Source: Parabacteroides sp. AM08-6 (lineage in GTDB: Bacteria > Bacteroidota > Bacteroidia > Bacteroidales > Tannerellaceae). Taken from it: 64,000 nt of DNA. The notes under the pieces were generated by a model. The model searched no databases. It was not told the origin of the DNA and was given only the letters and a program-made list of their open reading frames with translations. The stretch is taken from NCBI RefSeq assembly GCF_003473295.1, contig NZ_QRMP01000012.1, forward strand, positions 1 to 64,000, in the 5' to 3' direction. The position numbers were made by a program, and so were the translations under genes. Shown here in pieces: positions 16,201 through 64,000 of the stretch (positions are counted from its first letter, which is position 1; every line of letters begins with the position of its first letter).

Positions 16201-18974
16201 TCCTCACCGTAATTACTACTAGCAATTGTGTTGGCGGTGATAGTTATTGCCTTCGGCCATACACTATCCGTTACGAATGTAATCGGAGCCAAGGTATAGT
16301 AATCAGCTGAGTCACCGGACAAAGTGGCTGTTACTTTTACAGGTTTTTTACCTCCGGCATTGGCATCGGCTAATACACCACTGAAACCGTTAGCTAAATC
16401 AAGATTTGTAGCATCCGGACCTAACTTACCGGCAAACTTCAATGTGCCTTTAGTCAATGTCACATTTGTTGTACCATTATATTCTCTGGCTTCTGCTGTT
16501 AAACCTTCCACCAAAGTAACCGTACGTTTGTTAATCTTCAGAGATTGAGTGTTAGACTTTTCTTTACTGTTCGCAACAGTCAAACTGATTTTAACAGTTC
16601 CCGGTTTCTTAATTTTCAGTACATTATCAGAGATTTCCGCTTTGTCACTACCCTCTGCAATCGTAGCCTTTACACCTTCCTGGTTGAACGCCAATGCTAT
16701 CGGTGCCGTACCAAATACTACACTATCCGGTAAGTTGGTGATAGCGGCAAGCAATACGGTGGATTTTACATCTCCTTCCAGCGAAGCATCCCCTTCTAAG
16801 GTATGACCGTCATTGAAAATCCAGGTTTTACCAGTAGCTACCACAAAGTTCTTAACTACATTCCCCTCCCAGTTTTGGAAAGCAGCAATTTTTACATTTG
16901 CCCCCGTAACCTGTAGGTTAGCATTTTCCAAACCGGAACTGATATATACATTTTCATTATTAGCGTTAAAAGTATAAGTAGCTTTACCGGATACGTAAGC
17001 TTTGTAAGATTTATGATCTTTGGAATTCTCCCAATTCTTAACAGCTCCCAGGTAAGTGATACAGTTGTTACCAAAAGTACATTTATCATCGAATGTCATC
17101 GTAATATCTTTCACCGTACCCCGGTTGATAGATGCGATTTCTGCTTTATCCTTAAAAGTACAGCCCTTAAGAGTAGCCGTAACCACATCCGAACGGCCGT
17201 TACTTCCGGTACCATAAAGGCCACCGATAATTGCTTCGTCGATAGTTGCTTCTACATTCTTGGAATAAGAATATCCCTGTCCGCCCCCTAAAGCGATAGT
17301 TCCATACGTACCACCTGTCAGCGAGATTGTAGTTTTCGGAATACTGTTCACAGAAGCATCAAATTCGGTATCCAACGTATTGCCTGTTTCTCCTGAATCG
17401 TAGCCACCGCCCATAATCCAAGCGTTGGAAGCATTTGCATCTTTTGCCGTAATCTTAGCTTCTCCGCCGATTTTGGATTTATACATACCGCCGGCAGCCA
17501 GAATATTCGTAACTGTACCTTTATTAATCGTAATAGCAACATCTCCTGCTACATTGGCTGTATAGTTTTCAGTCTTTTTCGAACCGAAGCCACCTCCGTA
17601 AATGTTTTTAACCGTACCACCATTCATGGTAATAGAGGTTGAACCAGATATATCTTTCTTATAGCTACCGCCATAAACAGTCAGTGTCTCATCATAATCT
17701 TCAGAACCAATCTTAACACCCTTTTCGCTACCGCTACGAGCTTCAAGCGAAATAGGCTTCCCGTCTGCGAAGTACATATTCCATAACTGGGCTTTGTTTG
17801 TACCTGTTCCTTGCGGAGTCAATGTCGCACCATCAGTAGACAGCAAACCATTATAGAAGTTCCAGATTTTTTTCTCTCCGATTGTAAATGCCTTGACACC
17901 TTCTGCATCAGCAGTTTTCTTCTTAAAAGGTTCCACTGAAGCTTTTGCTCCCGTCAAGTTTACATTTGCAGCATCAAGTCCTTGTCCAATCCGAACAAGA
18001 GGAGCATTTCCATTAAAGGTATAAGAAACTGTTCCGGTAACATTCGGAATGACTCTCCCATCCGTATCACTATCAGCCCAACCTTCTACAGCACCAACAA
18101 AAGCTTTTATACCTGTATCAAAAGTACAACTATTGAAAGTTAGGTTAACATCTCCTACCCGGCCACGATTTAATGTTGCTATTTCCTCACTAATCGAACA
18201 ATTATTTACCTGAACATCGACTTTATCCGAACGGCCGTTAGAAGCAATTCCATACAAAGTAGCAATCTTAACATCATTAAGTTCTACAGTTGTTGACTTG
18301 GAATAAGAATAACCCTGTCCACCTCCACAACCGATATATCCGGTGATTTCACCACTCGTCATCGTAAACTTAGTCGATTTCACGCGGTTTACAGAGTTAG
18401 CATATTCCGTATCAATCGTATTCTTTTTAGTAGCTCCGGCTTCAAATCCTCCCATGAAAGGATAAGCAATAGAAACATCGCCACTTACTTCAATAACAAC
18501 ATCTTCAGATTGAGCATAATACAAACCGCCGGCAACCAATAAATTGGTGATACTGCCGCCTGTAATCGTAATCTTAGTTGGTCCTGTCACATTAGCATAC
18601 GTCGACTCGTCCTTTGTCGCACCTGCCGCTACTAATTCTCCATTACCCCCGCCATAAAGATTTCGAAGAACTCCTCCGGTCATCGTGATAGTCGATTGTG
18701 TGACAGGAAGATTTTTTTTACCGCCATAAAGAATGACTATAGAACCATCCTCGAAAGAAAGAGGATCTTCACCTTCACATTCAATAGTGACTCCCTCAGC
18801 CCCATTAGCTTTAACTGTTACCGGATTTCCATTTGCATAAACAACTTCACGCTGGTCATTACCAGTTCCTGTCGTTTCATGAGTCATTTTAGGATTTGTG
18901 TTGTCTGCACGTAGCCACCCCACACTCGTTACCGTCATAAAGACAGATAACAACATAAGTAATCTTTTCTTCAT
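13248..18974 (-). CDS. Giant secreted surface protein: duplicated repeat region, MBG/YDG repeats, BIg2 domain, sorting-type tail
   Basis: A 1908-residue protein of unknown function. A signal peptide (MKKRLLMLLSVF onwards, cleavage near LRA-D) shows export. Residues about 25-390 and 395-720 are two copies of one glycine-rich, beta-helix-like unit; both contain GGGQGYSYSK and NGRSD. Next come four MBG/YDG-type modules marked by REYNGTT (two), KTYDGKT and KYYDGS near 835, 1190, 1505 and 1590, with a BIg-like domain near 1100-1180. A BIg2 domain follows (about 1750-1831), then a beta-rich tail with VYAKEGYIYI and GVYVVKL, like a Por/T9SS-type or DUF6383-type C-terminal domain. This is the build of an adhesin or matrix protein (inference). 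The ATG at 18974 is preferred over a TTG two codons upstream. An apparent invertible promoter lies upstream at 19133-19331. Confidence 0.85.
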   Translation of the reverse strand: MKKRLLMLLSVFMTVTSVGWLRADNTNPKMTHETTGTGNDQREVVYANGNPVTVKANGAEGVTIECEGEDPLSFEDGSIVILYGGKKNLPVTQSTITMTGGVLRNLYGGGNGELVAAGATKDESTYANVTGPTKITITGGSITNLLVAGGLYYAQSEDVVIEVSGDVSIAYPFMGGFEAGATKKNTIDTEYANSVNRVKSTKFTMTSGEITGYIGCGGGQGYSYSKSTTVELNDVKIATLYGIASNGRSDKVDVQVNNCSISEEIATLNRGRVGDVNLTFNSCTFDTGIKAFVGAVEGWADSDTDGRVIPNVTGTVSYTFNGNAPLVRIGQGLDAANVNLTGAKASVEPFKKKTADAEGVKAFTIGEKKIWNFYNGLLSTDGATLTPQGTGTNKAQLWNMYFADGKPISLEARSGSEKGVKIGSEDYDETLTVYGGSYKKDISGSTSITMNGGTVKNIYGGGFGSKKTENYTANVAGDVAITINKGTVTNILAAGGMYKSKIGGEAKITAKDANASNAWIMGGGYDSGETGNTLDTEFDASVNSIPKTTISLTGGTYGTIALGGGQGYSYSKNVEATIDEAIIGGLYGTGSNGRSDVVTATLKGCTFKDKAEIASINRGTVKDITMTFDDKCTFGNNCITYLGAVKNWENSKDHKSYKAYVSGKATYTFNANNENVYISSGLENANLQVTGANVKIAAFQNWEGNVVKNFVVATGKTWIFNDGHTLEGDASLEGDVKSTVLLAAITNLPDSVVFGTAPIALAFNQEGVKATIAEGSDKAEISDNVLKIKKPGTVKISLTVANSKEKSNTQSLKINKRTVTLVEGLTAEAREYNGTTNVTLTKGTLKFAGKLGPDATNLDLANGFSGVLADANAGGKKPVKVTATLSGDSADYYTLAPITFVTDSVWPKAITITANTIASSNYGEERTFTVADYSSDLKGDKLNGTLKFDCAATSTSPEGEYAITPYGLSNPNYAITYKQGKLTVKAIAPTIELVSAEVVTNGDTRDIKLTAKLTDLGGTDTAKLAEAKKLKVTFLYNNDSNASEDGVLADGLYTATIAGIIPSTTDATYKIKAKATINDLTGESAALDVVINSLKPQNISFAESVLPTVVYGSSITLGASSSETAATGEYAYELEDSDIAEIQDGKLIANGVGKVVLTVSRAKDGTYAAATAKKTIEITRKPITVNPITAGDIKREYNGTTNGIDKLASKLTLNGVETGDDVKVKDFAFSFSGKNAGTQDIILPVLSLEGDAADNYTLIQPTGLKGVIEKAPLTIKVEDATRNWNDLYTKYEFGFTPEEALSKNGETLSMAYSGSLDVTETAEGKLHLTVNPALCPNYDLQVGKDATLTINKGTPVAIVVKFSGMPTALLVDSAGWTDLTVSGVDGTGRATVTSTSGETWSSLNQVDVKPLNQVTSLAMTKAVDNNFWSTTAKDVKTIPYTKGRTFDLSVADYISTTPGIISISGATATIVGTGKVAIVKKDGTQVALMNITPADLYAVADMSKTYDGKTQTTGSIKLMTAATGGTELSGVDVALNQEDVTFNFNEAGVKANAINPSQALILTGSEANNYKLNTTLAGSIAKKVLKITTINKYYDGSAVSSNVTDYTAEGLISGDIVPVKVAFKTANVGATLVESNPVQLMGEGNYELSTDKPTSAAILKSTFVATLPASATTKENVVSGTKFVISQTGADVKVNNATLAYNPDVAQSGTSPVVFYVTGGDTDNYSVVYTSNQVNKSSSVPPVVNPPVEATGVTLDVTAKTLAVGESFTLVATVTPANADDTSVSWSSSDPTIASVDADGKVTALKAGKATITATSNDNPNFTATCKVSVEAPTGIEEALADSRVYAKEGYIYIEPMAEMQVVIVSMEGKTIYNNRISGQKQIPATPGVYVVKLISAGKVVTSKVGVF

Positions 18975-19003
18975 AATCAAATAATTAAAATATTAATAGT
19001 AAG

Positions 19004-19132: not shown

Positions 19133-19331
19133 AATGACTAAAATAAACGAACGTTTTTTTTAGTCATTTGCTCGCCACAAAAATCAACATTAATTTTCAT
19201 ATACCCAAATTTTTTTGCAATAAAAAACTAATTAATTATCAGCTACTAAGCCCGATTATATAAAAAAATCGCTCCAAAGCCTTATTTTATCTGAAAATGA
19301 CTAAATAAAACGTTCGTTTATTTTAGTCATT
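19133..19331. promoter_or_regulatory. Probable invertible promoter segment (36-bp inverted repeats, class I-like site)
   Basis: Bases 19133-19168 and 19296-19331 are inverted copies of each other with one mismatch in 36, enclosing 127 bp. The centre of each arm carries AAACGTTCGT in opposite orientation (19147-19156 on the minus strand, 19308-19317 on the plus strand), an exact match to ARACGTWCGT, which I recall as the Mpi serine-recombinase site of Bacteroides fragilis invertible promoters. Total length (199 bp) is like those capsule promoters. It lies 158 bp upstream of the giant surface-protein start. No recombinase gene is nearby. Confidence 0.8.
19178..19209 (-). promoter_or_regulatory. 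Candidate promoter inside the invertible segment, facing the surface-protein gene
   Basis: Read on the minus strand, TTTG (19209-19206) is followed after 20 nt by GATTTTTG (19185-19178), one base off TAnnTTTG. The spacing fits the Bacteroidetes -33/-7 arrangement. It points at the 18974 start, so the present orientation would be ON. The imperfect -7 box makes this tentative. Confidence 0.45.
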
Positions 19332-19834
19332 TTTTTTGCTAACAAAAGAAGAACCCATAAGCCTTAGTTATAAAAATACTTATACTTTTTAGCAAAAACA
19401 CTTACGTTTTTTTGCTAAAAGACTTAGATTTCTTTCCAAATGTATTTTCACAAATTGATTTTCAACAGCAACCCTGAAAGTGTCAAAAGTGCCAAAAGTG
19501 CCAATAATGCCAATAATGCCATATAGTATTTTCAATAATGCATTATATAGATTAATCACTGATAATATGATACTTACCACACAAATAATATTAATAGGAA
19601 GAGAATATTCCTAAACTCCCTCGGCACTTTCAGACCTTTTTGAATAGTTCTTTCAGGACTCTTTTTGAAGGGAAAAAAAGCCCTTTTACGGGTATTCGGA
19701 GAAAAAGAGGAAGGAAATAGCATCCGAATGTTAAGAAAACTGATATTTTTCTATTAGTCAGGGGGAAGAAAAAAGATGCAATAGCTCCCTGAAAATTCGT
19801 GAGCACTTATTGAAAATTCATGAAAACGAAAAGA
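19332..19834. other. AT-rich intergenic region, no gene seen
   Basis: About 500 bp between the invertible segment and the cstA terminator. It holds the left arm of the 19475/19948 inverted repeat and runs rich in A and T. A 63-residue frame on the minus strand (19389-19580) reads through the 9-nt repeat units and shows no domain, so I do not call it. Confidence 0.6.
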
Positions 19835-19948
19835 GGTTTATAGGATACCGCCCCTATAAACCCCTTATTATCAATATATTTACAACCACAAAAGCATCTT
19901 CTTCATTTTAAAATACTTATGGCATTATTGGCACTTTTGACACTTTCA
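19475..19948. repeat. Inverted repeat built of 9-nt units, overlapping the cstA stop
   Basis: The left arm at 19475-19522 consists of 9-nt steps (AGTGTCAAA, AGTGCCAAA, AGTGCCAAT, AATGCCAAT, AATGCCAT). The right arm at 19919-19948 is the inverted copy of the same series with two units fewer. The right arm ends on the cstA stop codon (19946-19948). The arrangement, inverted arms of 9-10-nt quasi-repeats around 300-400 bp, echoes the element at 141-532, though the sequences between the arms are unrelated. Confidence 0.8.
19835..19862 (-). terminator. Terminator of the dcw-yqeY-cstA operon
   Basis: GGTTTATAGG (19835-19844) pairs with CCTATAAACC (19853-19862) around an 8-nt loop; on the minus strand a T-rich stretch follows. 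It lies about 85 bp beyond the cstA stop. Confidence 0.75.
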
Positions 19949-50687: not shown

Positions 50688-50842
50688 GTAAAGTTTTCGT
50701 ATTTAACAAACTGTATGTCGAAGAAGAAAAGAAATTATTACATTAATGTCAAAAATATAAGTCATTCTATCATTTTTATACTTGCAGAAAGCACAGCAAT
50801 CACTTTATTTGTATAATCATAAACATATCTTAAGTTTACTAT

Positions 50843-52432
50843 ATGAAAAAAGAAATTCTATCAATTTTGGTTCTATGGCTTGCTTGTTGCTGTATGCAAG
50901 CCCAATCCATTGCAGTTGTTCCCCAACCTTCGGAAATAACCAGTACATCCGCTCCGGTCATTTTAAAAAACGGAAAAGAGATTAAGGTTTATATCACACC
51001 TGAAGCACAATTGGAAAAGGCCTATATTTCAGATTTATTGCAAGAGATGAGATTGTCGCCCGTCTATGTTTCCAAAAATAAAAAAGCGCAGCTTGTATTG
51101 GAAATGAAACCGGGAGTAACAGGTAATCCGGAAGAGTATCTCCTGAACATTGGCCCTAAAGAAAAAAATCCGATTCATATCCAAGCCGAAACAGAAGCCG
51201 GTTTACGCTACGCCATGCAAACATTACGCCAATTGGTATATGAACAAAATGGAGCAGTCTGTTTCCCCGGATGTAAAATAAAAGACATTCCAGCCTTTTC
51301 GTGGCGGGCATTTATGTTGGATGAAAGCCGCCATTTCCATGGTATGGCTATCGTAAAAAATCTGTTGGATGAAATGGCACGGTTGAAGATGAACACTTTT
51401 CATTGGCATTTGGTAGATGACCCAGGCTGGCGTATCGAAATCAAAAAATATCCGCTTTTGACAAAAATCGGTTCCAAAAGAGACTTCTCCCACCGGGAGA
51501 TAACACCAGCCGGATGGGATAGTATTCATTCGGAACGCACCTATTACACACAAGATGAAATACGGGAAATCATACAATACGCCGCTATCAGAGGTATCCG
51601 GATTATTCCGGAAATAGAAGTTCCGGGGCATGCGTCCGCCTCCATTGCTGCTTATCCTTGGCTTGGAACATCCAGCCGTAAAGAAGATAAACCGGTATGG
51701 GGAGATTTATACCAGGTCACAGACCCTAAGGTTGAACAATTTCTACAGGATGTACTCAGTGAAGTCGTAGCACTCTTTCCCTCCAAAATCGTACATATTG
51801 GGGGCGATGAGGCCGGATTCGTACACTGGCAGAATGACAAAGACATAACAGCCTTTATGAAAGCCAATAATCTACCTACCTGTTCCGATTTACAATTGTG
51901 GGCTATCAACAGGGCTTCGGCGTTCCTTGCTTCCAAAGGATGTAAAATGATTGGATGGAATGAAATTACAGGCGATAACATTCGTAATGAACAGCATGTT
52001 GAAGCCAGTAAATCCGAAAAATTGGCAGCAGGAACGATTGTTCAATTTTGGGATGGAGAGGTTAGTTTGGTTAACAAAGCAATACAAAAAGGATATGACG
52101 TTGTTAATTCAAACCGTCTCTTTACTTATCTGGACTACCCATATGATGCTATACCTTTGGACAAGGCTTACTCTTTCAATCCGATACCGGAGAATTTACC
52201 GGCTAATGTTTCCAATAAAATATTAGGTACAGGATGCCAGATGTGGGGAGAGTTCACACCTACGCCGGAACGGATTTATTTCCAGACATTCCCTCGCATA
52301 GCTGCCTATGCAGAGTGTGGATGGACTGAAAATTCCAAGAAAGATTATAAAGACTTTTGCAAGAGAATGCAAAAAATACAACAGATATGGGATAAGAAAG
52401 GCTATATAAATACACAGCCGTTATATAAATAA
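50843..52432 (+). CDS. Secreted beta-N-acetylhexosaminidase (GH20)
   Basis: A 529-residue glycoside hydrolase that removes terminal GlcNAc or GalNAc from host glycans or chitooligosaccharides. A signal peptide (MKKEILSILVLWLACCCMQA) directs it to the periplasm or outer membrane; the cysteines near the cleavage site leave a lipoprotein possible. A GH20b-like N-terminal domain precedes the GH20 catalytic barrel with the Asp-Glu pair in HIGGDE (Asp322, Glu323) and a downstream QMWGEFTP. TATACTTG at 50777 is a near -7 box. It is convergent with the GH78-type gene and is probably not part of the downstream PUL operon. Confidence 0.92.
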   Translation: MKKEILSILVLWLACCCMQAQSIAVVPQPSEITSTSAPVILKNGKEIKVYITPEAQLEKAYISDLLQEMRLSPVYVSKNKKAQLVLEMKPGVTGNPEEYLLNIGPKEKNPIHIQAETEAGLRYAMQTLRQLVYEQNGAVCFPGCKIKDIPAFSWRAFMLDESRHFHGMAIVKNLLDEMARLKMNTFHWHLVDDPGWRIEIKKYPLLTKIGSKRDFSHREITPAGWDSIHSERTYYTQDEIREIIQYAAIRGIRIIPEIEVPGHASASIAAYPWLGTSSRKEDKPVWGDLYQVTDPKVEQFLQDVLSEVVALFPSKIVHIGGDEAGFVHWQNDKDITAFMKANNLPTCSDLQLWAINRASAFLASKGCKMIGWNEITGDNIRNEQHVEASKSEKLAAGTIVQFWDGEVSLVNKAIQKGYDVVNSNRLFTYLDYPYDAIPLDKAYSFNPIPENLPANVSNKILGTGCQMWGEFTPTPERIYFQTFPRIAAYAECGWTENSKKDYKDFCKRMQKIQQIWDKKGYINTQPLYK

Positions 52433-52551: not shown

Positions 52552-54771
52552 TTATTGCTTATGCAAACTACAATTAGATGCATTTTCTATTGTAACCTCA
52601 TATCCTTCAGGAATATTCAAAGAATAAGAGATTACATTATCTTTCTTGACCCACTCAAGCGTTACATATTCAGGACCTACAGGTATCTTGCCTTTACAAG
52701 ACTTCAAATCTGTATCCGTAAATTTAATTTCAATCTTTTTGATATTAGGTAAAATATTTTTTACCCCTAATATATCGCGATAAAAAACATGTGCAATATG
52801 AGAAGCAAAGCCATGATTACAGCTTGCCACAGTAGTCATGTTTTCCCACAATGTACCGGTTGTCTTCGCCATAATCAGATATTCATCGAGCGATTCATTC
52901 ATCAGCTGACGAATATGACCATATCTCGACAGTATCTCCAGACGTAAATAGTTTCCTATAAATGCGTTCGCAAAATGAATTGAGGGATACGGATTATTTA
53001 TTTTACGTTTTGGACCGAATTCATTTAATAGACGTTGCCATAACTCAGGATACAATTCAGGAGTCGCCACATTAAAATAGAAGGCATAGTATTGACAAAC
53101 TTCTGTTTGATTATTTCTCTGAACCTCTAGTTTGCCATTCTTCCGAACAGCATTATCGGAGAAAAATTGACCATCGAACGATTGCTTACGTATTACCTTA
53201 CGCACTTTTTCAGCCTCTTTCTTCAATGATGAATCATTATATATATTACCGGCTGCATCCAACATACCGGCATAAAGCATATTGGAGGGATAATTTACAT
53301 CCTGAACAAAACTATTGGCAGCAGACCATTCCACAAAAACCCACTTATCTAGTTTCTCCAACAATCCATCTTTATTTTTAAACGGTTTGAAATATTCAAT
53401 CAAATCATAGACTTTCGGCTTAAGAGCTTCAATCATCACCTTATCTGTACTCCGTTTTGCATATTCTTCCAATTCAAGAACAAACCACATCGCCCAATTT
53501 GGAATAAAATTATTATTCGGATGATCGCTCGGATAGCACATTGGCAACATTCCATGCGGAATATCCTTGAATGTATCAGGTAATAAGAAATTTTGTAAAA
53601 AGTTATGTTCTATCCATGTATAACCGGATAAATCAAAAGCAACCCGAGCACTAAAATAACTATCGCAAAGCCACCCTGCCCGTTCTCGCGAAGGGCAATC
53701 CATAAATATATCAAGGGCGTTCTGCCGAAATGTTTCACGAGCTGTTTCGAAAAGGAAGTTTAAACCAACATCATTCGATTCAAACTCGGCACGATGCACA
53801 TCGCTATTTACATAACTACGCATATAAGTCATAAGGATATCTCCTTCCCCTTCTATCTTCGTTTTTAAATACTTCAATGTATAAGGCTCGAATGTTTCGA
53901 GAGTGTAATCTCCGGGCTGTAAATCATAGACAATATAGCTTTCTGTACCTAAGCGTTTATAATTCACGTCATTATTTGACAACAATTCATCAAAAAAGAG
54001 AGTAATCTTAGATGGCTTTTTCACCTTTACCGAAAGGCCGATAAAACCGGTACTATTGGAGGTAAACACATAAAGACTATCCGATATTTGCGAGGAACGA
54101 AGAATTGAATAATCCGGATATGGAACCCCTCTCGGTAAAAGTTTCTTCTCCGGCTGTATCGCGCAAGAAACCGGCTGGCCTTTATTCCATGAGGCATCCG
54201 TCATCCACTGATTATAATCAGATGACAAAATATAATACTCTGTAAAAGGACGCTGAAAACTAAAGCGAGGGACATCCGGTTTTCTCTGATTCAGTATATA
54301 CGCCGAGAAGTCATCCGATGTTCCTGATGCAGTAATCACTTTATTTCCGGCTACTACTTCTGCCTGCAAAAAAGAAGGTTGGTCCAACAAATAATAACTG
54401 GGTGTATTATATCCGCTCACTTCTATGGAAACAATATTATCTCCCGGCTTCAATAAGTTTGTTATTTCATACGAATCTATACGATAATAATCATGAGCAG
54501 CGACACAAGGACCATGCGCAAGAAATTTCCCATTGACATACGCACGATAATCAGTAGAAGCCGCAATCTTTAAATTTGCACTTTCAATACTTTTCACATG
54601 GAAGACTCTACGAAACGAAACGGTCATATTCTGCTTCTTTTCATTCCCTTCCGGCCATATTGGTTTTGCTTTTACAAACGAACTCACTTCATTAAAAAGG
54701 AAATCATTACCTTTTACACTCACTGTTATCAATAGTGATAATATGGTTATTACAAATGTCTTTAAATTCAT
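52552..54771 (-). CDS. Secreted alpha-L-rhamnosidase-like glycoside hydrolase (GH78-type)
   Basis: A 739-residue exported enzyme (signal peptide MNLKTFVITILSLLITVS, cleavage near VKG). N-terminal beta-sandwich domains (about 40-300) are followed by an alpha/alpha-barrel with DIFMDCPSRERAGWLCDS near 370, corresponding to the GH78 signature DCPxRDERxGW/GD, and a C-terminal beta domain. The acid residue is placed within this block. It is the last gene of the susC-susD operon, so it probably trims rhamnosyl side chains from the imported or captured glycan. The block differs from typical GH78 (RERAGWLCD instead of RDERxGWxGD), so specificity may not be plain rhamnosidase. Confidence 0.82.
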   Translation of the reverse strand: MNLKTFVITILSLLITVSVKGNDFLFNEVSSFVKAKPIWPEGNEKKQNMTVSFRRVFHVKSIESANLKIAASTDYRAYVNGKFLAHGPCVAAHDYYRIDSYEITNLLKPGDNIVSIEVSGYNTPSYYLLDQPSFLQAEVVAGNKVITASGTSDDFSAYILNQRKPDVPRFSFQRPFTEYYILSSDYNQWMTDASWNKGQPVSCAIQPEKKLLPRGVPYPDYSILRSSQISDSLYVFTSNSTGFIGLSVKVKKPSKITLFFDELLSNNDVNYKRLGTESYIVYDLQPGDYTLETFEPYTLKYLKTKIEGEGDILMTYMRSYVNSDVHRAEFESNDVGLNFLFETARETFRQNALDIFMDCPSRERAGWLCDSYFSARVAFDLSGYTWIEHNFLQNFLLPDTFKDIPHGMLPMCYPSDHPNNNFIPNWAMWFVLELEEYAKRSTDKVMIEALKPKVYDLIEYFKPFKNKDGLLEKLDKWVFVEWSAANSFVQDVNYPSNMLYAGMLDAAGNIYNDSSLKKEAEKVRKVIRKQSFDGQFFSDNAVRKNGKLEVQRNNQTEVCQYYAFYFNVATPELYPELWQRLLNEFGPKRKINNPYPSIHFANAFIGNYLRLEILSRYGHIRQLMNESLDEYLIMAKTTGTLWENMTTVASCNHGFASHIAHVFYRDILGVKNILPNIKKIEIKFTDTDLKSCKGKIPVGPEYVTLEWVKKDNVISYSLNIPEGYEVTIENASNCSLHKQ

Positions 54772-54822
54772 AATCGTAAAATTTAATTACACAAAATCTG
54801 GAACTTTAATGATTAAGAAGAA

Positions 54823-54864
54823 AATAGTTACCAACAACTACAAAGATAGCCATTGGTAACTATT
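54823..54864. terminator. Hairpin between the DUF4998-type and GH78-type genes
   Basis: AATAGTTACCAA (54823-54834) pairs perfectly with TTGGTAACTATT (54853-54864). It lies in the 120-bp gap within the PUL and could partly terminate transcription or protect the upstream transcript; such gaps often set lower expression of the enzyme gene relative to susCD (inference). Confidence 0.6.
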
Positions 54865-54891
54865 AAACTATTTATCAGGCCATATTCCTAC

Positions 54892-56028
54892 TTAATAGCC
54901 ATAAGCATAGAATTCCATAAAACTAATATACGGAGAACCTGCTTTTGAATTGGGGAATACAAGAGCAATATAACGTCCTTTCGTTACTGCCGGCAATTCA
55001 ATCATAAACTCATCACTACCATCATAAGTCGTAGTAACTGCAGGAGTTCCCCACGACGCATCCGGAGCATCAGCCGGCAATTCTTTGTCACTCACATAAA
55101 CTTCAACATCTACAATATAACGCCAACCGGTATTTGATGAAGGAATAATTTTTAACGCAGTAGGAGCCTGAGATTCCTTCATATCAACGACAAATACTTG
55201 AGGAAACCCAGCACCGACTCTTGAATGCCAACCGGTTAAAGTATTCCCGTCGAATACCAGATATGGGAATCCGCCACCACCGTCACCCCAATCATGATTG
55301 CCATTACGTGCACTGGCCGTCCATGTATCTCTTGGGAACTGGTACAAGAACGGTTTACCATAGGTTGTCCAATCGAGCGAAACGGTATCTATGCCGTTAA
55401 CCGGCAAAAAATGTGAACGATATTCAAACAGTTCACCCGGTTTTGCATCCGGACATTTCAAAGTTTTCTCCGTAGACGGAACTTTCACAATGCTATAGCT
55501 ACCCGAATTATTCTTATAACGAACTTCCGTATAAACTAAATCTGTCGAGAGAGCCCCCCAATTAATGGTTCCCGTATAATTTCCATCACGTGTGGCTTCT
55601 TCAACGGCACGTTCCGTCAATGTTATGAAATAATTATCACCATACGATGTACCTGTAGCCTCACTGACAATAGAAGCATTTCCATCTTCATCAAATGTTT
55701 GTACATTGAAAGTATAGGTTCCTTCAACCAAATCGGGAATGCTAATCTCCACGATATCGGGTGCTTCCGTCAAATCAACCGACAGGGAATCTGTATAATT
55801 ATTCCAATAAACCTTTGCACGGACAACACTCGGATCCATCGCTTTTAGCCAAGTAAGCTTCAAGCGGTTATATCCGGAAAAGACCTTCAGAGAATCGGCT
55901 TTTTGAGGATACTTATGTCCATTCAATTGCACAAACTCTTTATATATCGAATCTTGATCTTTACAAGAAAACATATTGACTACAATAAATATCGCCAATA
56001 GGATGTATATAGATTTCTTCATTTTCAT
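54892..56028 (-). CDS. PUL lipoprotein, DUF4998 plus F5/8 type C (discoidin-like) domain
   Basis: A 378-residue surface lipoprotein. The lipobox is VVNMFSC with the lipid cysteine at 22. The N-terminal half resembles DUF4998 with two fibronectin-like sandwiches (about 35-225); the C-terminal part (about 235-378) is a discoidin/F5-8C carbohydrate-binding fold with LVFDGNTLTGWHSRVGAGFP and a late RYIALVF. It is the fourth PUL gene in transcript order and is likely to bind the glycan at the cell surface. The exact ligand is not known. Confidence 0.8.
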   Translation of the reverse strand: MKMKKSIYILLAIFIVVNMFSCKDQDSIYKEFVQLNGHKYPQKADSLKVFSGYNRLKLTWLKAMDPSVVRAKVYWNNYTDSLSVDLTEAPDIVEISIPDLVEGTYTFNVQTFDEDGNASIVSEATGTSYGDNYFITLTERAVEEATRDGNYTGTINWGALSTDLVYTEVRYKNNSGSYSIVKVPSTEKTLKCPDAKPGELFEYRSHFLPVNGIDTVSLDWTTYGKPFLYQFPRDTWTASARNGNHDWGDGGGGFPYLVFDGNTLTGWHSRVGAGFPQVFVVDMKESQAPTALKIIPSSNTGWRYIVDVEVYVSDKELPADAPDASWGTPAVTTTYDGSDEFMIELPAVTKGRYIALVFPNSKAGSPYISFMEFYAYGY

Positions 56029-56050
56029 AAATATTTAATTATCCATTTGA

Positions 56051-57316
56051 CTAATTTTCTACCTTTTGACCCCAGAAAGTAAACTCTCCGATAATGATTT
56101 GCCCTATCGATGCATCAGTTCCATAAGTAGCAAACGTCGACGTCACCTTGAAACGGAGGTAAGATACCGGCTGATGTGGGTCTGGAGTTTCTTCCGAAGG
56201 AGCTAACTCAAATTCCGTTTTATTATACCAATAATCCTTGTCTTCGTCCGTAATAGTCCCGACTTCCCGGCCTTCACCATAACCGGAAGGCTTAAATTGT
56301 TCAAATTTCCCAATCAAATGCCAGCTTTCATCAAAACTGCCATCCGGGTTAGGATTCGTACTGCCATATACTTCGATTGTACGCGGAGCTGTTCCCGAAT
56401 ATAATTCATAATCATTTCGCGGCCATTTTTGGATACGGCTAATTGAAGCTTTATAGCCCAAACTAATCGTAAACCATTGAGGCATCGGACCGGAATGTGA
56501 GGTCGCATAAAAACCACCTCTCAAGTCTCCATCCCACAGACGATGAATACCATATCCACTTTCATTACCTTCCGCAACTGTAAAATAGTCGGTTGGAAGA
56601 TTACCATTCGTATAAGTATCTTTTGATAGTTCAATCTCCTCAATAGGAGTCAACTCTTTAAATATTGTATCGGAATGATTATCCCAACGGTCTCTTAGAA
56701 AAGCTCCGTAAATACGGGTTTCTGCAGCCAGATTACGTCTTGTTAAGCTAATCGACTTTGCAGAAGTATGGAAAGTAGTGACATCAGCCCATTTAATCTC
56801 CGAAGGTTTTAAATTGATATCGGAAAGGATTGTATCAACCAAAACTCCTACTGCCAAATCAGCACCGGAATGATTATCTTCCAGTTTTACGACTACTCCG
56901 CCGAAAGTTTCTGCAATATCGAATTTTACAGCCTGGACAGGAGGTGTTAAAGGATTAACCGTTACAACTACCGGTTCAGAAAGCTTTTCATTCACACCGA
57001 GGCTATATACTTTAATATCCCGGGGTTCCGTATTTCCAAATCCTTCCACCGCCAAAGTGTCCACATATTTAGAAATCTTAGTTTTACATTCTTCACCGTT
57101 ACGAGTATATACAGCCATTGCTCCCATTAGATTTTTATCATTAGGAACCTTGACTTTTATAACCGCCCCTCCCGGAGTATTTGTAATACCGACAACCTTC
57201 AATGCGGCAGGAGCAGGAGCCGATTCGTCTATCTGGTCTATTCGGCCAAGCTCGCTACATCCAAAATAGATAAATGTGGAGACGGCAACCATTAAAAACA
57301 ATATTATCTTTTTCAT
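56051..57316 (-). CDS. PUL lipoprotein, DUF4959 / DUF5126 / DUF5000 (discoidin-like) layout
   Basis: A 421-residue surface lipoprotein with lipobox FIYFGC (cysteine 20). It starts with a DUF4959-like domain (ALKVVGITNTPGGAVIKVKVP), continues with a DUF5126-like sandwich and ends in a DUF5000 discoidin-type domain (about 255-421) with LWDGDLRGGFYATSHSG. Such proteins follow susD in many Bacteroidetes PULs and act as surface glycan-binding proteins. It lies 22 bp before the next lipoprotein gene and 27 bp after susD. Confidence 0.84.
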   Translation of the reverse strand: MKKIILFLMVAVSTFIYFGCSELGRIDQIDESAPAPAALKVVGITNTPGGAVIKVKVPNDKNLMGAMAVYTRNGEECKTKISKYVDTLAVEGFGNTEPRDIKVYSLGVNEKLSEPVVVTVNPLTPPVQAVKFDIAETFGGVVVKLEDNHSGADLAVGVLVDTILSDINLKPSEIKWADVTTFHTSAKSISLTRRNLAAETRIYGAFLRDRWDNHSDTIFKELTPIEEIELSKDTYTNGNLPTDYFTVAEGNESGYGIHRLWDGDLRGGFYATSHSGPMPQWFTISLGYKASISRIQKWPRNDYELYSGTAPRTIEVYGSTNPNPDGSFDESWHLIGKFEQFKPSGYGEGREVGTITDEDKDYWYNKTEFELAPSEETPDPHQPVSYLRFKVTSTFATYGTDASIGQIIIGEFTFWGQKVEN

Positions 57317-57343
57317 AATTTATCACATTTATAAGATTATACA

Positions 57344-59299
57344 TTACCAGCCTAAATTTTGCACCAAATTCGGATTCTGCTCTATTAGGCTAGTCTGAAT
57401 AGGCCAAAAATAATCTTTCAATCCAAAAGTCTGGTCAGCAAGCTTAATCAACTGATAATAATCAGCCGGCTTACTTGCCGTTACCTTATATCCATAGATA
57501 CCTTTACTATATTCAGAAGGAGCTTCTTTCCAGCGACGCAAATCCCAAAAACGTTGTCCTTCAAATGACAATTCAATTAAACGTTCGCGATGAATGATTT
57601 CCCGCATACCGAGCTGCGTTTCATATTTACCCGGTGTATTACTATATTTATCCCAAGCGGTTTTTATATCAGGGATATTAGCCCTTTCGCGAACCAAATC
57701 TATATAATTAAACATATCTGAACTATGTGCACCATTCGGACCTTCCGCCTCATTTATAGCTTCTGCATAAAGCAAATAAAGATCTGATAGTCTAATCATC
57801 GGCCATGGATAATACACATAACTATATCCGGTTGCCGAAGTCTGGCGATTCTGATAATGTACATACTTTTTCAAGAAATACCCCGTAACAGGTCCCCAGT
57901 CATATCCTTTCTTAGCCTGATGTCCGCCGACACGGCAAGCAATCCAGAACAAATCACTCGGAAGCGGATCGTTCATGGCTGATTTTTGTCCATACCATTG
58001 ACCTCCGTCAAATCCCAACCAAGCATAAAATCTCGGTTCACGATTGAAATTGAATTCTACTGTCGTATAATCCTGGCGGATATACCAACGGTTTGCGTAA
58101 TCCCCGTCACGCAATGCCAACGGATTGACCCCTTGCCAACTCTTATCATACTCTATCGGCAAACCGTTATTCGTGTAAAATTCTTCCGCTACTTTATAGG
58201 GAGCTTGTATGTGTGAATATAAAGAAGGCATATCCGGATAATCTACCCATTGTAGATTCGGAGAAGCACACTTTTGTATATTCTCATTCGCACCTTTAGC
58301 CGTATGAGTATTTCCCCAAATAATTTCAGGATTCCATTTCTCCGTAAATGCATTCCTCAAATTTAATTCAACACGGATTGAATCATTCAAGCGAAGATTT
58401 CCATTGTAATAATAAAGCTCAATATTTGCCGATTCACAAATATCAATTGCATTTTTACAAGCTTCCATGGCATAAATCCAACGTGCTTTTACTTCTTCAT
58501 CCGATTTATTCGTATCAAACAAATGTACACCTCGGTTATCAACTATAGTTGCCTGGTCTTTATTGTTATTAAACAACGGACTTGCTGCAAAAACAGCGAT
58601 TTTTGCTTTTAATGCAGCTGCAACCGGCTTGGTGATACGTCCCAATTCATCACGACTCTGAGTTACATAAGGTAAATCAGGAATTGCTTCATCCAATAAT
58701 TGCAATACATAGTTATAGCAAGAATCTATCGGATCCCTATATACACGAACCTCATCTATAGAAGCGTTTATAGGAAGATTTTCTTTTATTATTGGAATTG
58801 GCCCCCATTTACGCATCAAATGGAAATGGTAGTAAGCTTTCAAAACCTTTGCTTCAGCTATCCACTGAGTTGCTTCCCAATCCGGTAAATCCGGAACGCT
58901 TTTCGCATTTTCTATCATGATATTGCAGCATCGGATTCCTTCATATATACCGGACCAATCGTTCCCGTATGGCGAGGATGCACCTTGAAATCCACGAGCT
59001 ATATTAAATAAAGTCCCATTAAAAACACCACCGCTTTCACGCCGATCATAGATAGTCCATATTTCATCACCTGTTACCAGACCATGGTCTTTATCCAAAT
59101 CACCGTCAGAAGTCAGAAAACCGTAACAAGTATACAAATAACGGATAGCTGTCGTACGTAAATTAAAAGCAGTTTCCAGTGTAGCTATTCCATCATCCGG
59201 CACAATATCCAAATAATCACTGCATGAAAAGAATGTCAGTAAACCAGCCAATGCCACAACCAGCTTCTTTTCTCTTATTTTATTCAATATATCTGACAT
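57344..59299 (-). CDS. SusD-family glycan-binding lipoprotein
   Basis: Surface lid protein of the outer-membrane glycan importer, paired with the SusC encoded 8 bp upstream. The 651-residue protein has a lipobox (LLTFFSC, cysteine 27), the SYLDIVPDDG-like opening (CSDYLDIVPDDG) and TPR-type helices with YLYTCYGFL and AKVLKAYYHFHLMRKWG, ending in the REIIHRERLIELSFEGQRFWDLRRW signature, split here by a few residues. At 651 residues it is larger than SusD (about 550), within the range of RagB-like members. Confidence 0.95.
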   Translation of the reverse strand: MSDILNKIREKKLVVALAGLLTFFSCSDYLDIVPDDGIATLETAFNLRTTAIRYLYTCYGFLTSDGDLDKDHGLVTGDEIWTIYDRRESGGVFNGTLFNIARGFQGASSPYGNDWSGIYEGIRCCNIMIENAKSVPDLPDWEATQWIAEAKVLKAYYHFHLMRKWGPIPIIKENLPINASIDEVRVYRDPIDSCYNYVLQLLDEAIPDLPYVTQSRDELGRITKPVAAALKAKIAVFAASPLFNNNKDQATIVDNRGVHLFDTNKSDEEVKARWIYAMEACKNAIDICESANIELYYYNGNLRLNDSIRVELNLRNAFTEKWNPEIIWGNTHTAKGANENIQKCASPNLQWVDYPDMPSLYSHIQAPYKVAEEFYTNNGLPIEYDKSWQGVNPLALRDGDYANRWYIRQDYTTVEFNFNREPRFYAWLGFDGGQWYGQKSAMNDPLPSDLFWIACRVGGHQAKKGYDWGPVTGYFLKKYVHYQNRQTSATGYSYVYYPWPMIRLSDLYLLYAEAINEAEGPNGAHSSDMFNYIDLVRERANIPDIKTAWDKYSNTPGKYETQLGMREIIHRERLIELSFEGQRFWDLRRWKEAPSEYSKGIYGYKVTASKPADYYQLIKLADQTFGLKDYFWPIQTSLIEQNPNLVQNLGW

Positions 59300-59307
59300 A
59301 ATTGTAA

Positions 59308-62300
59308 TTAATTAAAAGTTAAATTAATACCGAAATTAAATACTCTCTGGATAGGATATCCAAGGCCGTCACCAGCCATTTCAGGATCCCATAACTTAAA
59401 TCTGCTCCAACAGAGAAGATTTGTTCCGCTCACATAGAATCTCAAATTGCTGACATGATACTTTTGCAACAATTTTTCGGGAAGAGTATATCCTAATTCA
59501 ACTTGTTTCAGACGCAAGAAAGAGCCGTCACGCATGAACCATGTACTAGTCTGTGTATTATTCTTATTTATAGAAGGACTTAATCTCGGCCACAATGCAT
59601 ATAAATCTTGATTATCTTCCGACCAATGGCTATCGGCATAAGCCTTTAGCAACTGAGTTTGGTCTTGGAATGGTGAGGTATTCGCAGCATTTATCCAGAA
59701 AGATTCATTCCCCAGCCCTTGGAAAAACACAGATGCGTCAAATCCTTTATAACCGGCAGAAAGACCGAAGCCATAAATAATTTCGGGAGATGTCGGATTA
59801 CCGATAGGAACCATATCTGCTTCCGTAATCTTACCGTCGCCATTTACATCCGTATATTTAATATCACCACCGCCATATTCGCTTCCAAAATCTTGTATCG
59901 GAGAGTTCGCCGCTTCTTCATCATCTAAGAATAAGCGTTCAGCAATATATCCCCAAGTTTGTTTCAGCGACTGGTTTACATGCGAACGCCACCATTCTTT
60001 ATATTCCGGTTCTTCGTAAATCTTATACTTACTTGTCGAATAAGTAAAATTAAAACGAGCAGAAGTCCAAAGATCCTTTGTCCATACTTGCTGATAATCA
60101 GACTGAATATCAATACCGTGTGCCGTTGCTTCACCGATATTGGCTTTTACCTGTGCTTGAAGGCCCATCGTTGTTGGAATAGCCGAACGAGCCATTAAAA
60201 TTTCTTTTCTATGTTCGGTAAAATACTCTGCGATAATATTCAATTTATTAAACAACCCCAGTTCCACAGCATAATTCTGTTTAGTGGACTTTTCCCAGGT
60301 TATATGGTCATTTGCATAACGGTTAATACGGATACCGGCACCGCCGACACTGGCATTCTCTCCGAAATAGGCACCTCTATCCCCATCGTTCATATTCACA
60401 TCCGACAAATAGAAGAAACGGTCTGTTGATTCACCAATCTGGTCGTTACCGACCAAACCATACGAATAACGCAACTTCAAATTACTGACAACCGGTTTGA
60501 AACGTTCAAAAAAATCTTCATTCGAAATCAACCAACCCAAACCGGCAGAAGGGAAGAACCCCCAACGGTGGTTTGCCGAAAAACGTTCGGAACCATTATA
60601 ACCGAAATTAAACTCTGTAAAATATTTATTGTTGTAAGCATACGTAAAACGACCTGCTAAACCGACATTTCGAGAAGGCAACGACAATTGCAGAGAGCCT
60701 TGATTAGCAGCCAGATATTCACGGGTTGTAAAAACCATCAAACCACTTACCGCATGTTTTCCAAATTCACGATTATAATTCAAATGAGATTCAGTATACA
60801 AGGTCGACGTAATCGTTTTGTCGCTCTCCGAATAACCTAAATATTCCGTACCGTCATCATTGATACGCTCCAAGTGATACTCTCCGGTATAACTATCATA
60901 ATCAGACATAACATACCAGAACGGATTATAAGAACGGTTTACACTGTAATTCGACAAACGGGATATATTAACCATTGCCATAAAAGAAAGACCTTTCGTA
61001 ATAAAGTCCAATTTCTGGTTTACATCCACAGCTGCCAACATTTGCGAACGGTTACTATTCTGATAGCCGCGAACCATTTCCGCATAAGGATTTCGATAAC
61101 CGCCTGTACCATAATTACCGAACATGATATGTTTCGTGTATTTAAAATCCTCATCTGTCGGATAATAGGCTGGAAAAAGTACTGGATTGGAACGTACAAT
61201 CATTTTATAAACCTCAGTACCACCTTGCAGAGGACCGGTATAATCATCAAAGTTCCCTGTCAGACGGATACCCAGTTCGGTCGTTTTCGTTACGTTTATA
61301 TCGACATTGGCACGTAATGTATAGTTTTTAGAAACAACGTTATTATTGAAACTGTTACGTTTGTCAACTTTCAAAATACCATTATCACGAGTAAAACTGG
61401 CCGCTACATAATATTGAGCAACTTTACCACCACCCGATACATTCAAATTACCACGATAACTATTAGCATGGTCTTTAAACAACATCTTGTACCAGTCATT
61501 TGCCGGATAAATATATGGACTTGAACCGGGTTTCAATGTGTTTTCTATTTTATCCTGAGAATAAGGCAGCTCCCCTAAAGGATTACGCGTCAACACCGCT
61601 TCATTATGAGCTTTCATAAAAGTAATCGGATCTGCCATTTCCACATTATCAGTCGGTTGAGAAATAGAATTCTCCAAACGGACAAACACTTTAGCCGGTC
61701 CCTCTACACCACGTTTTGTTGTTACGAAAATAACACCGTTTGCACCGCGAGCACCATAAAGAGCTGTTGCCGTAGCATCTTTCATGATAGAGAAACTGGC
61801 AATATCATCAGGCTGCAAACGAGCCAAATCGGTCGATGTTAATTCGATATTATCAATAAGAATTAACGGATTTGTATTTGCACCGAAAGTCGTGATACCA
61901 CGAACAAAGAAATCCGCATTATCTTTTCCGGGTTCTCCGGTACGTTGATAAGCTATAACCCCCGCCAAATTACCGGCAAGTGCGGTTGTCAGGTTACTTG
62001 AAGGAATCTTCAAGTCGGCAGGACTGACCGTTGTAATAGCAGCAACCACACTTTCTTTTTTCTGTTTTCCGAAAGCAACGATTGTCACCTCGTCCAATTC
62101 ATCAGCTTTGGGTTTCATTGTAACGACCAGCTCTTTTTTATCCTTTATCGTGACAATCTGGTCTTCCATGCCCAAATAAGAAACAGTCAATTTCTCTCCG
62201 ATAGAAACACTAATTGTAAATGAACCATCAACATCCGTAGCGACACCTCTGGTTCCTCCTAAAATAATTATATTTGCTCCGGGAAGTGGTTCTCCCATGT

Positions 62301-62547
62301 CATCTAAGACCTTACCTTTCAATTCAAAAGCTGCTTGATTTTGTTGTAGCTTCATAGTACTTGCTCCAACTTTAACCTCCGAGCTTGTTTGATTCCCTTT
62401 TTCCTGCTTACTATTCATAATAACATTTGTACCGGTCACTGTTTTAGTTTCTGTAGAAGCAACAGACACAGTATAACTCGGGATACACAGAATAGTCAGG
62501 AGTACAGCTTTTTCAATTAATTTACTGTATGTAGATTTATTCATCAT
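59308..62547 (-). CDS. SusC/RagA-family TonB-dependent outer-membrane transporter
   Basis: The 1079-residue outer-membrane importer of the PUL. After an export signal (first about 30 residues) and an unusual hydrophilic stretch, a carboxypeptidase-regulatory-like domain occupies about 75-155 (ELKGKVLDDMGEPLPGANI), then a TonB-box region with VTIVAFGKQ, the plug (IMKDATATALYGARGANGV) and the beta-barrel to the C-terminal FNFGINLTFN. It starts the susC-susD-lipoprotein-lipoprotein-GH78 operon. The 104 bp between its ATG and the 62652 inverted repeat contain no TAnnTTTG box, so expression should depend on the orientation of the upstream segment. Two ATG codons stand in tandem at 62547 and 62544. 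Confidence 0.95.
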   Translation of the reverse strand: MMNKSTYSKLIEKAVLLTILCIPSYTVSVASTETKTVTGTNVIMNSKQEKGNQTSSEVKVGASTMKLQQNQAAFELKGKVLDDMGEPLPGANIIILGGTRGVATDVDGSFTISVSIGEKLTVSYLGMEDQIVTIKDKKELVVTMKPKADELDEVTIVAFGKQKKESVVAAITTVSPADLKIPSSNLTTALAGNLAGVIAYQRTGEPGKDNADFFVRGITTFGANTNPLILIDNIELTSTDLARLQPDDIASFSIMKDATATALYGARGANGVIFVTTKRGVEGPAKVFVRLENSISQPTDNVEMADPITFMKAHNEAVLTRNPLGELPYSQDKIENTLKPGSSPYIYPANDWYKMLFKDHANSYRGNLNVSGGGKVAQYYVAASFTRDNGILKVDKRNSFNNNVVSKNYTLRANVDINVTKTTELGIRLTGNFDDYTGPLQGGTEVYKMIVRSNPVLFPAYYPTDEDFKYTKHIMFGNYGTGGYRNPYAEMVRGYQNSNRSQMLAAVDVNQKLDFITKGLSFMAMVNISRLSNYSVNRSYNPFWYVMSDYDSYTGEYHLERINDDGTEYLGYSESDKTITSTLYTESHLNYNREFGKHAVSGLMVFTTREYLAANQGSLQLSLPSRNVGLAGRFTYAYNNKYFTEFNFGYNGSERFSANHRWGFFPSAGLGWLISNEDFFERFKPVVSNLKLRYSYGLVGNDQIGESTDRFFYLSDVNMNDGDRGAYFGENASVGGAGIRINRYANDHITWEKSTKQNYAVELGLFNKLNIIAEYFTEHRKEILMARSAIPTTMGLQAQVKANIGEATAHGIDIQSDYQQVWTKDLWTSARFNFTYSTSKYKIYEEPEYKEWWRSHVNQSLKQTWGYIAERLFLDDEEAANSPIQDFGSEYGGGDIKYTDVNGDGKITEADMVPIGNPTSPEIIYGFGLSAGYKGFDASVFFQGLGNESFWINAANTSPFQDQTQLLKAYADSHWSEDNQDLYALWPRLSPSINKNNTQTSTWFMRDGSFLRLKQVELGYTLPEKLLQKYHVSNLRFYVSGTNLLCWSRFKLWDPEMAGDGLGYPIQRVFNFGINLTFN

Positions 62548-62651
62548 ATTGATATTAAGTTAAACAAAAAAAATGAGTTAATTCATTCAAAATCAGGAAT
62601 TCACAGCGATACTTTATCCTCTCCCATAGGCATTCTATTTATATTATTTAA

Positions 62652-62925
62652 ATTAGTTCTTGTGGAACTATGTCGATACCAGAGATACTTTTTATGTGTT
62701 AATATGTATATAATCAAATGATTACATAATTTCGAGTTCGCACAGATATTTGTTGAATGATTAAGATAAAGAGGTCGACGTAGAAAATTTTTGAAGCTAT
62801 ATTTAGATTAGTGTCAGTTTTATTATATTAAAAATCATTTTTATAACTGTCATATTCTTTACATCTCATATATTTGCGATATTTAACAACTTGAATCTAA
62901 TCGACATAGTTCCACAAGAACTAAT
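62652..62925. promoter_or_regulatory. Probable invertible promoter segment (26-bp inverted repeats, AGTTC-N5-GAACT core)
   Basis: Bases 62652-62677 and 62900-62925 are perfect inverted copies of each other, enclosing 222 bp. Each arm carries AGTTC-N5-GAACT (62655-62669 and 62908-62922), the motif I recall for the class II invertible segments that control SusC/SusD genes in Bacteroides fragilis through a tyrosine recombinase. The left arm ends 104 bp before susC. The inner DNA is very AT-rich and non-coding. No recombinase gene is in the window. Confidence 0.85.
62869..62876 (+). promoter_or_regulatory. Consensus -7 box inside the invertible segment, facing away from susC
   Basis: TATATTTG matches TAnnTTTG exactly and is the only such box within the segment on either strand. 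As written it points right, away from susC and toward the 3' end of the MFS gene. Inversion would place it on the minus strand at about 62708-62701, giving susC a leader of about 147 nt. Confidence 0.65.
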
Positions 62926-63071
62926 ATACTTTTGGTATAAAAATTTCAAAAAAAAGGAAATAACACACAATATGAAATTTTAAAACATCCTTCTTACTTC
63001 CGATGATTTCTACTTATTTTTCCGGTATACCCACAGACAACAACAGACATCAAGTACAAACACAAAAAAAA

Positions 63072-63102
63072 CAGCTATAATAACAAATATTTATTATAGC
63101 TG
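63072..63102 (-). terminator. Terminator of the MFS transporter gene
   Basis: CAGCTATAATAA (63072-63083) pairs perfectly with TTATTATAGCTG (63091-63102) around a 7-nt loop. On the minus strand an eight-T run follows directly. It would also stop transcripts leaving the invertible segment only if active in both directions. Confidence 0.88.
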
Positions 63103-63141
63103 CTAGTAACTCATCATGCGCGTTTAACGCAAAACTATCTA

Positions 63142-64000
63142 TTAGCGTTGTCTTAACTTGGCTGACAAGATTAACAAATACAACACTCCTACCGCCAATA
63201 CAAGTAAAGCTCCCGCCTGTGAATGAACGGCATCCGAAGCAAAACCCATCAACAACGGAAAGATTGTTCCGCCGAACAGGCCCATTATCATCAGTCCGGA
63301 CACTTCATTCTGCCGTTGCGGCATTGAAAGCAAGGCTTCCGAAAACAGAATGGAAAAAACATTCGAATTGCCAAAACCGATTAAAGCGATACAAACATAA
63401 AGCAATACTTTCGTATCGAATAACAGGAAGCCGGTCATTGAAGCTATCATGCAAACAATACTTATGATAAAGAACTTTTTAGCCGACCAATGCGCCAAAA
63501 TGAATGAACCGGTCAAGCATCCGACCGTACGGACAATAAAATACAAACTTGTCGCAAACGCTGCCTGATGAAGATCCATTCCCAACCGCTCCATCAAAAT
63601 TTTCGGAGCAGTCGTATTTATACCCACATCAATACCTACATGGCACATGATACCTACAAACATCAGCAGAATAAAAGGATTACCCAGCAAAGCAAAACAT
63701 TCGCCATAAGTAGACGGTTTCCCTTCCGGCTTTTCTTCTTCTATATGTGTTGCCCCCAAGAAGAAAATAGCAATTATCGCGATTACCATATAAATAGGGA
63801 ACAGTACCCGCCAGCCTAATCCCATCGAAGGAATTGCCTGGGTAGCCCCCCACATGGCAATATAAGGAGCCAGGAACGAAGCAATCGCTTTTACAAACTG
63901 GCCGAAAGTCAGGCTACTTGCCAACTTATCACCGGTAATGATATTCGACAACAACGGATTCAAAGAAGTCTGCATCAACGCATTTCCAATCCCTAACAAA
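63142..64000 (-). CDS. MFS sugar transporter, 3' part (runs off the window)
   Basis: The last 286 codons of a major-facilitator permease. The visible part has about eight hydrophobic segments and MFS features such as GQFVKAIASFLAPY, and TSLYFIVRTVGCLTGSF in the second half. The sequence resembles the fucose/N-acetylglucosamine permease group (FucP/NagP-like), suggesting import of a monosaccharide. It could serve the neighbouring PUL or the GH20 enzyme, but it is separated from susC by the invertible segment and its own terminator. The start lies beyond base 64000; an in-frame TTG near the edge is not a start. Confidence 0.85.
   Translation of the reverse strand, partial: LLGIGNALMQTSLNPLLSNIITGDKLASSLTFGQFVKAIASFLAPYIAMWGATQAIPSMGLGWRVLFPIYMVIAIIAIFFLGATHIEEEKPEGKPSTYGECFALLGNPFILLMFVGIMCHVGIDVGINTTAPKILMERLGMDLHQAAFATSLYFIVRTVGCLTGSFILAHWSAKKFFIISIVCMIASMTGFLLFDTKVLLYVCIALIGFGNSNVFSILFSEALLSMPQRQNEVSGLMIMGLFGGTIFPLLMGFASDAVHSQAGALLVLAVGVLYLLILSAKLRQR

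Follow-up and report, generated by a model that had tools for sequence, protein, structure and literature searches.

At the right-hand side of the 64-kb stretch of Parabacteroides sp. AM08-6 DNA analysed here (the window), an operon at 52552-62547 encodes SusC, SusD, two more proteins of surface type, one with DUF4959/DUF5126/DUF5000 and one with DUF4998 and F5/8-type domains, and a GH78-like protein, with a GH20 gene adjoining. A first-pass annotation had called this a five-gene PUL, and its gene content was confirmed by domain assignment:

59308..62547, minus strand: susC, SusC/RagA family TonB-linked outer-membrane protein
57344..59299, minus strand: susD
56051..57316, minus strand: DUF4959/DUF5126/DUF5000 protein of the operon
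54892..56028, minus strand: DUF4998 and F5/8 type C protein of the operon
52552..54771, minus strand: GH78-like protein of alpha-L-rhamnosidase fold, last gene of the PUL
50843..52432, plus strand: GH20 hexosaminidase-family gene adjoining the PUL

One might guess that the PUL and the GH20 gene have a common substrate containing rhamnose and HexNAc. No ECF sigma, anti-sigma or hybrid two-component gene is found among the scanned neighbours (RsgA, frr, GH20 and MFS), up to position 63999.

The start codon of susC is at 62547, and the near arm of a perfect 26-bp inverted repeat (62652-62677 / 62900-62925) begins 104 bp upstream of the gene, with 222 bp between the arms:

62652..62677: susC-near inverted-repeat arm, holding AGTTCTTGTGGAACT at 62655-62669
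62678..62899: putatively invertible core, 222 bp, 24% G+C
62900..62925: susC-far inverted-repeat arm, holding AGTTCCACAAGAACT at 62908-62922, with the same spacer in inverted sense

Repeats, distances and the AGTTC-N5-GAACT motif of each arm were re-found exactly where they had been annotated; taken with their flanks, the arms form an inverted repeat that extends to 29 bp at 97%. The motif, which we take to be the class II motif of the Bacteroides fragilis SusC/SusD invertible segments, occurs twice in the window, both times in the arms, where simple arithmetic with equal base frequencies predicts about 4e-8 such pairs within 3 kb of each other in 64 kb. As in a class II inverton, the motif stands at both ends within inverted repeats, the 5-bp spacer is identical in inverted sense in both arms, and the segment has an internal promoter and adjoins a SusC/SusD operon. 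The arms lack the ARACGTTCGTN-type core of class I (Mpi) invertons, whose site motif differs from theirs. A search of viral contigs with the arm sequence gave no matches, and an Rfam scan of the window gave none at gathering scores.

Other inverted repeats are present in the window. A second perfect repeat of 25 bp (19133-19157 / 19307-19331, arms 149 bp apart) lies upstream of a gene for a 1910-aa YDG/MBG/Big_2 surface-type protein (13248-18980, minus strand); its arms contain AAACGAACGTTT, which resembles what we take to be the Mpi class I core, making 19133-19331 a candidate second invertible promoter. Nested inverted repeats of 16-22 bp occur at 82-533, near the left end of the window, and at 19475-19948, between the surface-protein gene and the CstA gene.

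Pairs of AGTTC-N5-GAACT separated by 215-245 bases were found at 20 places in 11 of 123 Tannerellaceae genomes, and a reversed-pattern control matched nowhere in the same 123. The 5-bp spacer, which the motif does not force to agree, is the same at both sites in inverted sense in all 18 of the 20 pairs that were examined; of the other two places one shares its spacer and one, in a repetitive stretch of genome G101, does not. On this sequence evidence, class II pairs are a real feature of the Tannerellaceae, the family in which the window also falls by its RsgA, 89-90% identical to the RsgA of several genomes from the family of a Tannerella metagenome genome. Six of the 18 adjoin a SusC homologue as judged by BLAST. 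In the Bacteroidaceae a pair with the same spacing was found in one of 301 genomes, in a partly masked stretch. Upstream of relatives of the window's own SusC the motif was found at none of 41 loci, so the inverton is not general to this SusC family; a contig scan had returned 43 such loci (best 83% identical), of which L009 and L037 were dropped for want of upstream DNA and some others had less than 700 bases of it. Two of the 41 upstream regions (L010 and L021) hold other short inverted repeats. At one of the six pairs beside a SusC homologue (L087 4019-4278, genome G062) a class II site lies inside the SusC coding sequence, so that inversion there would alter the start of the protein, and the pairs of genome G053 (L077, L078, L079 and L082) lie beside small HU-DNA-binding/DUF4469 proteins, some adjoining large proteins. 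Phage-integrase domains are abundant in all six relatives examined, and among these six no tyrosine recombinase could be assigned to class II sites because candidates are too many.

Within the segment there is a single TAnnTTTG box, on the plus strand at 62869-62876, which points away from susC as first annotated; a second, at 62927-62934 just beyond the right arm, points the same way. The box closes a layout of the form TGTCA-N15-AAATCATTTTTATAACT-N20-TATATTTG (62812-62876, plus strand), in which a direct repeat with a 21-bp period stands at a fixed spacing from the -7 box. We read this as a putative promoter without a recognisable -33 box, with an activator site in its place:

62812..62848, plus strand: predicted RhaR/AraC-type activator site, direct repeat TGTCAGTTTTAT (62812-62823) / AATCATTTTTAT (62833-62844) with period 21, directed away from susC
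62869..62876, plus strand: -7 box TATATTTG, spaced as in rhamnose-operon promoters, directed away from susC (OFF)
50747..50811, plus strand: another promoter-like site of RhaR type, fixed and directed at the GH20 gene, -7 end 31 nt from the ATG; second-best match in the window (14.8) of the matrix described below

Flipping the segment in silico brings its -7 box to 62701-62708, with 153 nt from the end of the box to the susC ATG, which fits the leader of about 147 nt that had been predicted for the inverted state.

The same layout precedes the rhamnose catabolic operon across the Tannerellaceae, usually opposite an AraC-family gene, and is also found before GH78, GH106 and GH20 genes. The direction of the promoter follows from these relatives, which precede rhamnose and rhamnosidase genes in direct orientation. 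At 14 of 16 L-rhamnose isomerase (rhaI) loci the element, standing before the rhamnose operon, scored above the maximum of 80 shuffles, the exceptions being L131, whose contig ends at rhaK, and L138, from a Bacteroides genome; in G059 the operon order is rhaK, rhaI, rhaT, aldolase and GH78-like, with the AraC-family gene divergent. A first motif pattern, which allowed up to three mismatches, gave mostly noise and its reversed control matched often, so only matches with no or one mismatch were used. This stricter motif occurs at 76 places in 52 of the 123 genomes, and its reversed control at none throughout. Among the first 30 loci returned, 21 precede rhaK, with 19-33 nt from the -7 end to the ATG in 20 and 118 nt in one, and in 17 of the 21 an AraC-family gene is divergent within the short stretch examined. 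When the 70 distinct sites (84 loci) were classed by their next ORF, 38 were RhaK-like, five GH106-like, four GH78-like, two SusC-like and one GH20-like, and 20, including the invertons of the window and of G083, had a next ORF without a match to the reference set. Two of the 70 (L165 and L181) have short inverted repeats on either side that lack the class II motif, which we take to be chance. The element stands in direct orientation before a GH20 gene in G083 and before GH78 alpha-L-rhamnosidase genes in G057 and G082; in G105 it precedes a GH106 gene with an in-frame stop after 102 codons, and this site was therefore counted as unassigned. As in the window, the GH20 gene of G083 thus has its own fixed RhaR-type site, and in G082 a further one (L136 1011-1075) lies before a GH127 gene close to the rhamnose operon.

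With a matrix built from nine dereplicated rhamnose-operon sites, 62812-62876 ranks first in the window with a score of 19.7, the maximum in 30 window shuffles being 7.6; the third place, at 13.5, lies inside the susC coding sequence. The matrix carries some circularity, as the rhamnose-operon sites from which it was built had themselves been found by a matrix derived from six sites of PULs and glycosidase genes. An alignment of rhaK upstream regions made blind to PULs, for which rhaI and rhaK were the sole criteria of choice (15 of 16 loci, reduced to 11 by dereplication), has the block seen at the matrix-located sites. When this alignment was used with nhmmer, the inverton site was absent among the best 10 matches, and the best match was the GH20 upstream region, overlapping the GH20 site (E 0.12). 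A matrix scan of SusC upstream regions covered 28 of the 43 loci, with the best six reported; one match (L038, 10.7) was set aside, the rhamnose operon of the same genome having scored -2.8.

These figures bear on the possibility that the segment is a simple class II inverton whose promoter is constitutive, in which the likeness to rhamnose promoters is a chance product of AT-rich DNA and inversion alone sets expression. The nhmmer result would fit this, as would shuffles of the AT-rich 222-bp core, which reach 16.7 at most in 500 with the same matrix, and the six other class II SusC invertons of the family that have no RhaR-type site (best score 1.7). Chance, however, does not readily account for 76 places against none for the reversed pattern in 123 genomes, for a site and -7 spacing conserved in G083 at 73-74% DNA identity, or for a build that recurs in six invertons with near-constant geometry, and we consider this reading unlikely.

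As to the activator, RhaR is an AraC-family activator of the rhamnose genes of Bacteroides. Comparative genomics of the Bacteroides group (PMC3870299) assigned to its AraC-family regulators of rhamnose use a motif that is a direct repeat with a 21-bp period, like that seen here. A site of this type, common to rhamnose operons, suggests that a regulator encoded elsewhere probably acts on the segment too; the probable candidate is RhaR or one of its paralogues. With a regulator gene that would lie at the rhamnose operon, its absence beside the PUL would be readily explained. The first-pass annotation had read the lack of a local regulator as fitting control by inversion; the lack itself was borne out among the scanned neighbours, but it does not point to inversion alone, since the RhaR-type site suggests a regulator elsewhere. 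The second half-site reads ATTTTC.TAAGC at rhaK sites and ATTTTTATAACT at PUL sites, and because of this difference the activator may be a paralogue of RhaR. It is possible, if doubtful, that the same switch answers to an activator other than RhaR, such as a paralogous AraC-family or a hybrid two-component regulator that serves rhamnoside PULs and glycosidases through a similar site of 21-bp period. Indeed, ATTTTTATAAC is common to the PUL, GH78 and GH20 sites and differs from the rhaK sites, and tandem HTCS sites of B. thetaiotaomicron are also about 21 bp apart on average (PMC3878776). Set against this are sites of intermediate type, such as those before GH127 in G082 and before SusC in G040, and the agreement of the classes in their first half-site and in its spacing from the -7 box.

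A RhaR-type site between class II arms upstream of SusC was found in six cases, the window and the genomes G083, G056, G059, G048 and G065. The five outside the window had escaped the exact-pair search because one of their arms departs from the exact motif by one base. The promoter is directed away from SusC in five of the six and toward it in G065. Flipped in silico, the -7 end would lie 153 nt from the ATG in the window, 149 in G083, 161 in both G056 and G059 and 157 in G048, while in G065 the distance as sequenced is 168 nt; in G040 a fixed site that has no class II arms is directed toward SusC, 177 nt away. The inverton of G083, in a PUL whose SusC is 58.6% identical to that of the window, agrees with the window inverton in layout and orientation, and in each the -7 box is 46 bases away from the motif of the far arm; the two have in common the core TGTCA-N15-AAATCATTTTTATAACT-N20-[TG]AnnTTTG, with small changes. 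The PUL of G056 encodes GH106 and GH78 proteins (94-96% identical in their G059 counterparts), that of G048 likewise encodes one of GH78 type, and next to the G040 PUL there is a GH78 gene; no rhamnosidase was found among the four proteins scanned in the PUL of G065, which is a different PUL with a SusC 24% identical to that of the window. G056 and G059 are near-identical at the locus (SusC 98.9%) and so count as one origin. The cassette stands at a near-fixed distance from the SusC start codons of PULs whose SusC proteins are 24-59% identical to that of the window, as if it were a portable, invertible and inducible promoter. On balance, we lean towards the view that class II invertons of the Tannerellaceae have repeatedly taken up a rhamnose-activator promoter, which would make a recurrent two-key switch, with recombination selecting the cells able to use a rhamnoside PUL and a shared sugar regulator determining the time of use.

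A short element in the susC leader also recurs:

62624..62631, minus strand: GCCTATGG in the susC leader, common to four of the five other RhaR-type invertons

It stands 78-91 nt upstream of the SusC start codon in five of the six (the window and the leaders L075, L212, L213 and L214; not G065) and occurs also near the inverton at L080, with no occurrence in 38 other SusC leaders (38 of 43 loci scanned). It is a candidate leader or recombination element.

Orientation has to be weighed with regard to which side of the segment the promoter serves, and to whether the segment still turns. As sequenced, the window promoter reads rightwards into 62926-63142, and this orientation could be the working one, with a far-side product rather than susC under its control. 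Such a role is highly improbable, as neither the window nor G083 has an ORF of 60 aa or more that begins in the 300 bases downstream, the far-side gene differs between the two (MFS in the window, enolase-C-terminal-domain in G083), and the G065 and G040 promoters face SusC. Alternatively, the segment could be a relic that no longer inverts, the PUL being silent or read from an unrecognised promoter. The orthologous segments of the window and G083 are alike in orientation, as are those of G056 and G059, and no recombinase could be assigned among the six relatives, which would fit a relic. Decay, however, would spoil the arms, whose 26 bp match perfectly; all 18 pairs examined have matching spacers, and G065 holds an inverton of this build in the ON orientation, so that we consider a relic quite improbable. 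The two-key switch itself has against it that no single locus was found in both orientations, and that the ON case is another PUL: DNA searches returned no opposite orientation of the G056 region or, among the matches listed, of the G065 region. G058 follows G056 until 4 bases short of the far arm and differs beyond that point, with no class II-like site in the stretch examined; a G045 contig begins within the near arm, which is suggestive only.

That the segment is an invertible promoter in the OFF orientation, as first proposed, is still the best reading, given motif pairs that recur in the family with a control of zero and promoter relatives that supply the direction. With a probability of about 0.75, we favour the view that 62652-62925 is a class II-type inversion switch carrying a RhaR-type, activator-dependent promoter, OFF as sequenced and rhamnose-dependent when flipped. 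In the sequenced orientation the promoter would face away from susC and the five-gene PUL would be OFF. Inversion, presumably by a tyrosine recombinase encoded elsewhere, would turn the promoter towards susC and give a leader of about 150 nt; output in this ON orientation would depend on binding of the rhamnose activator, RhaR or a paralogue. The PUL would thus have two keys, site-specific inversion setting which cells may respond and rhamnose signalling setting the output. What keeps the promoter on a flipping segment might, at a guess, be phage or immune pressure on SusC.

The proposed switch resembles SusC/SusD phase variation in B. fragilis, served by the tyrosine recombinase Tsr0667, in what we take to be the site motif, in the SusC gene downstream and in the geometry of inversion. 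The B. fragilis system is described as a shufflon of SusC/SusD clusters (PMC4747536, PMC11852207), whereas the window has one simple promoter segment with a rhamnose-type activator site. The Mpi capsule promoters of B. fragilis likewise lie between inverted repeats and are ON or OFF by orientation (PMC10939037), but they belong to capsule loci and to a serine recombinase, Mpi (PMC4747536). PULs under hybrid two-component or SusR control, as covered in PMC3878776, are likewise sugar-responsive SusC/SusD operons; here, in contrast, no regulator gene is found among the scanned neighbours and the promoter lies on an inverton. The same paper reconstructs the RhaR regulon of Bacteroides as a single operon, whereas here the site is found also before glycosidase and SusC genes, and on invertons in six genomes. 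Among the best-ranked titles of a literature search, most subscription papers being outside its scope, none describes an invertible rhamnose-type promoter in Bacteroidales.

Phase-variable promoters of gut Bacteroidales are usually taken as random ON/OFF switches, and PULs as sugar-induced. If our reading is true, both layers of control lie on one 274-bp segment, so that the response to the sugar would be confined to a heritable subset of cells, and bet-hedging in glycan use would become directly testable. The ON or OFF state of an inverton could then be told from the regulon motif that its promoter matches, besides the -7 box, and recurrence of the build in several species hints at which PULs turn phase-variable.
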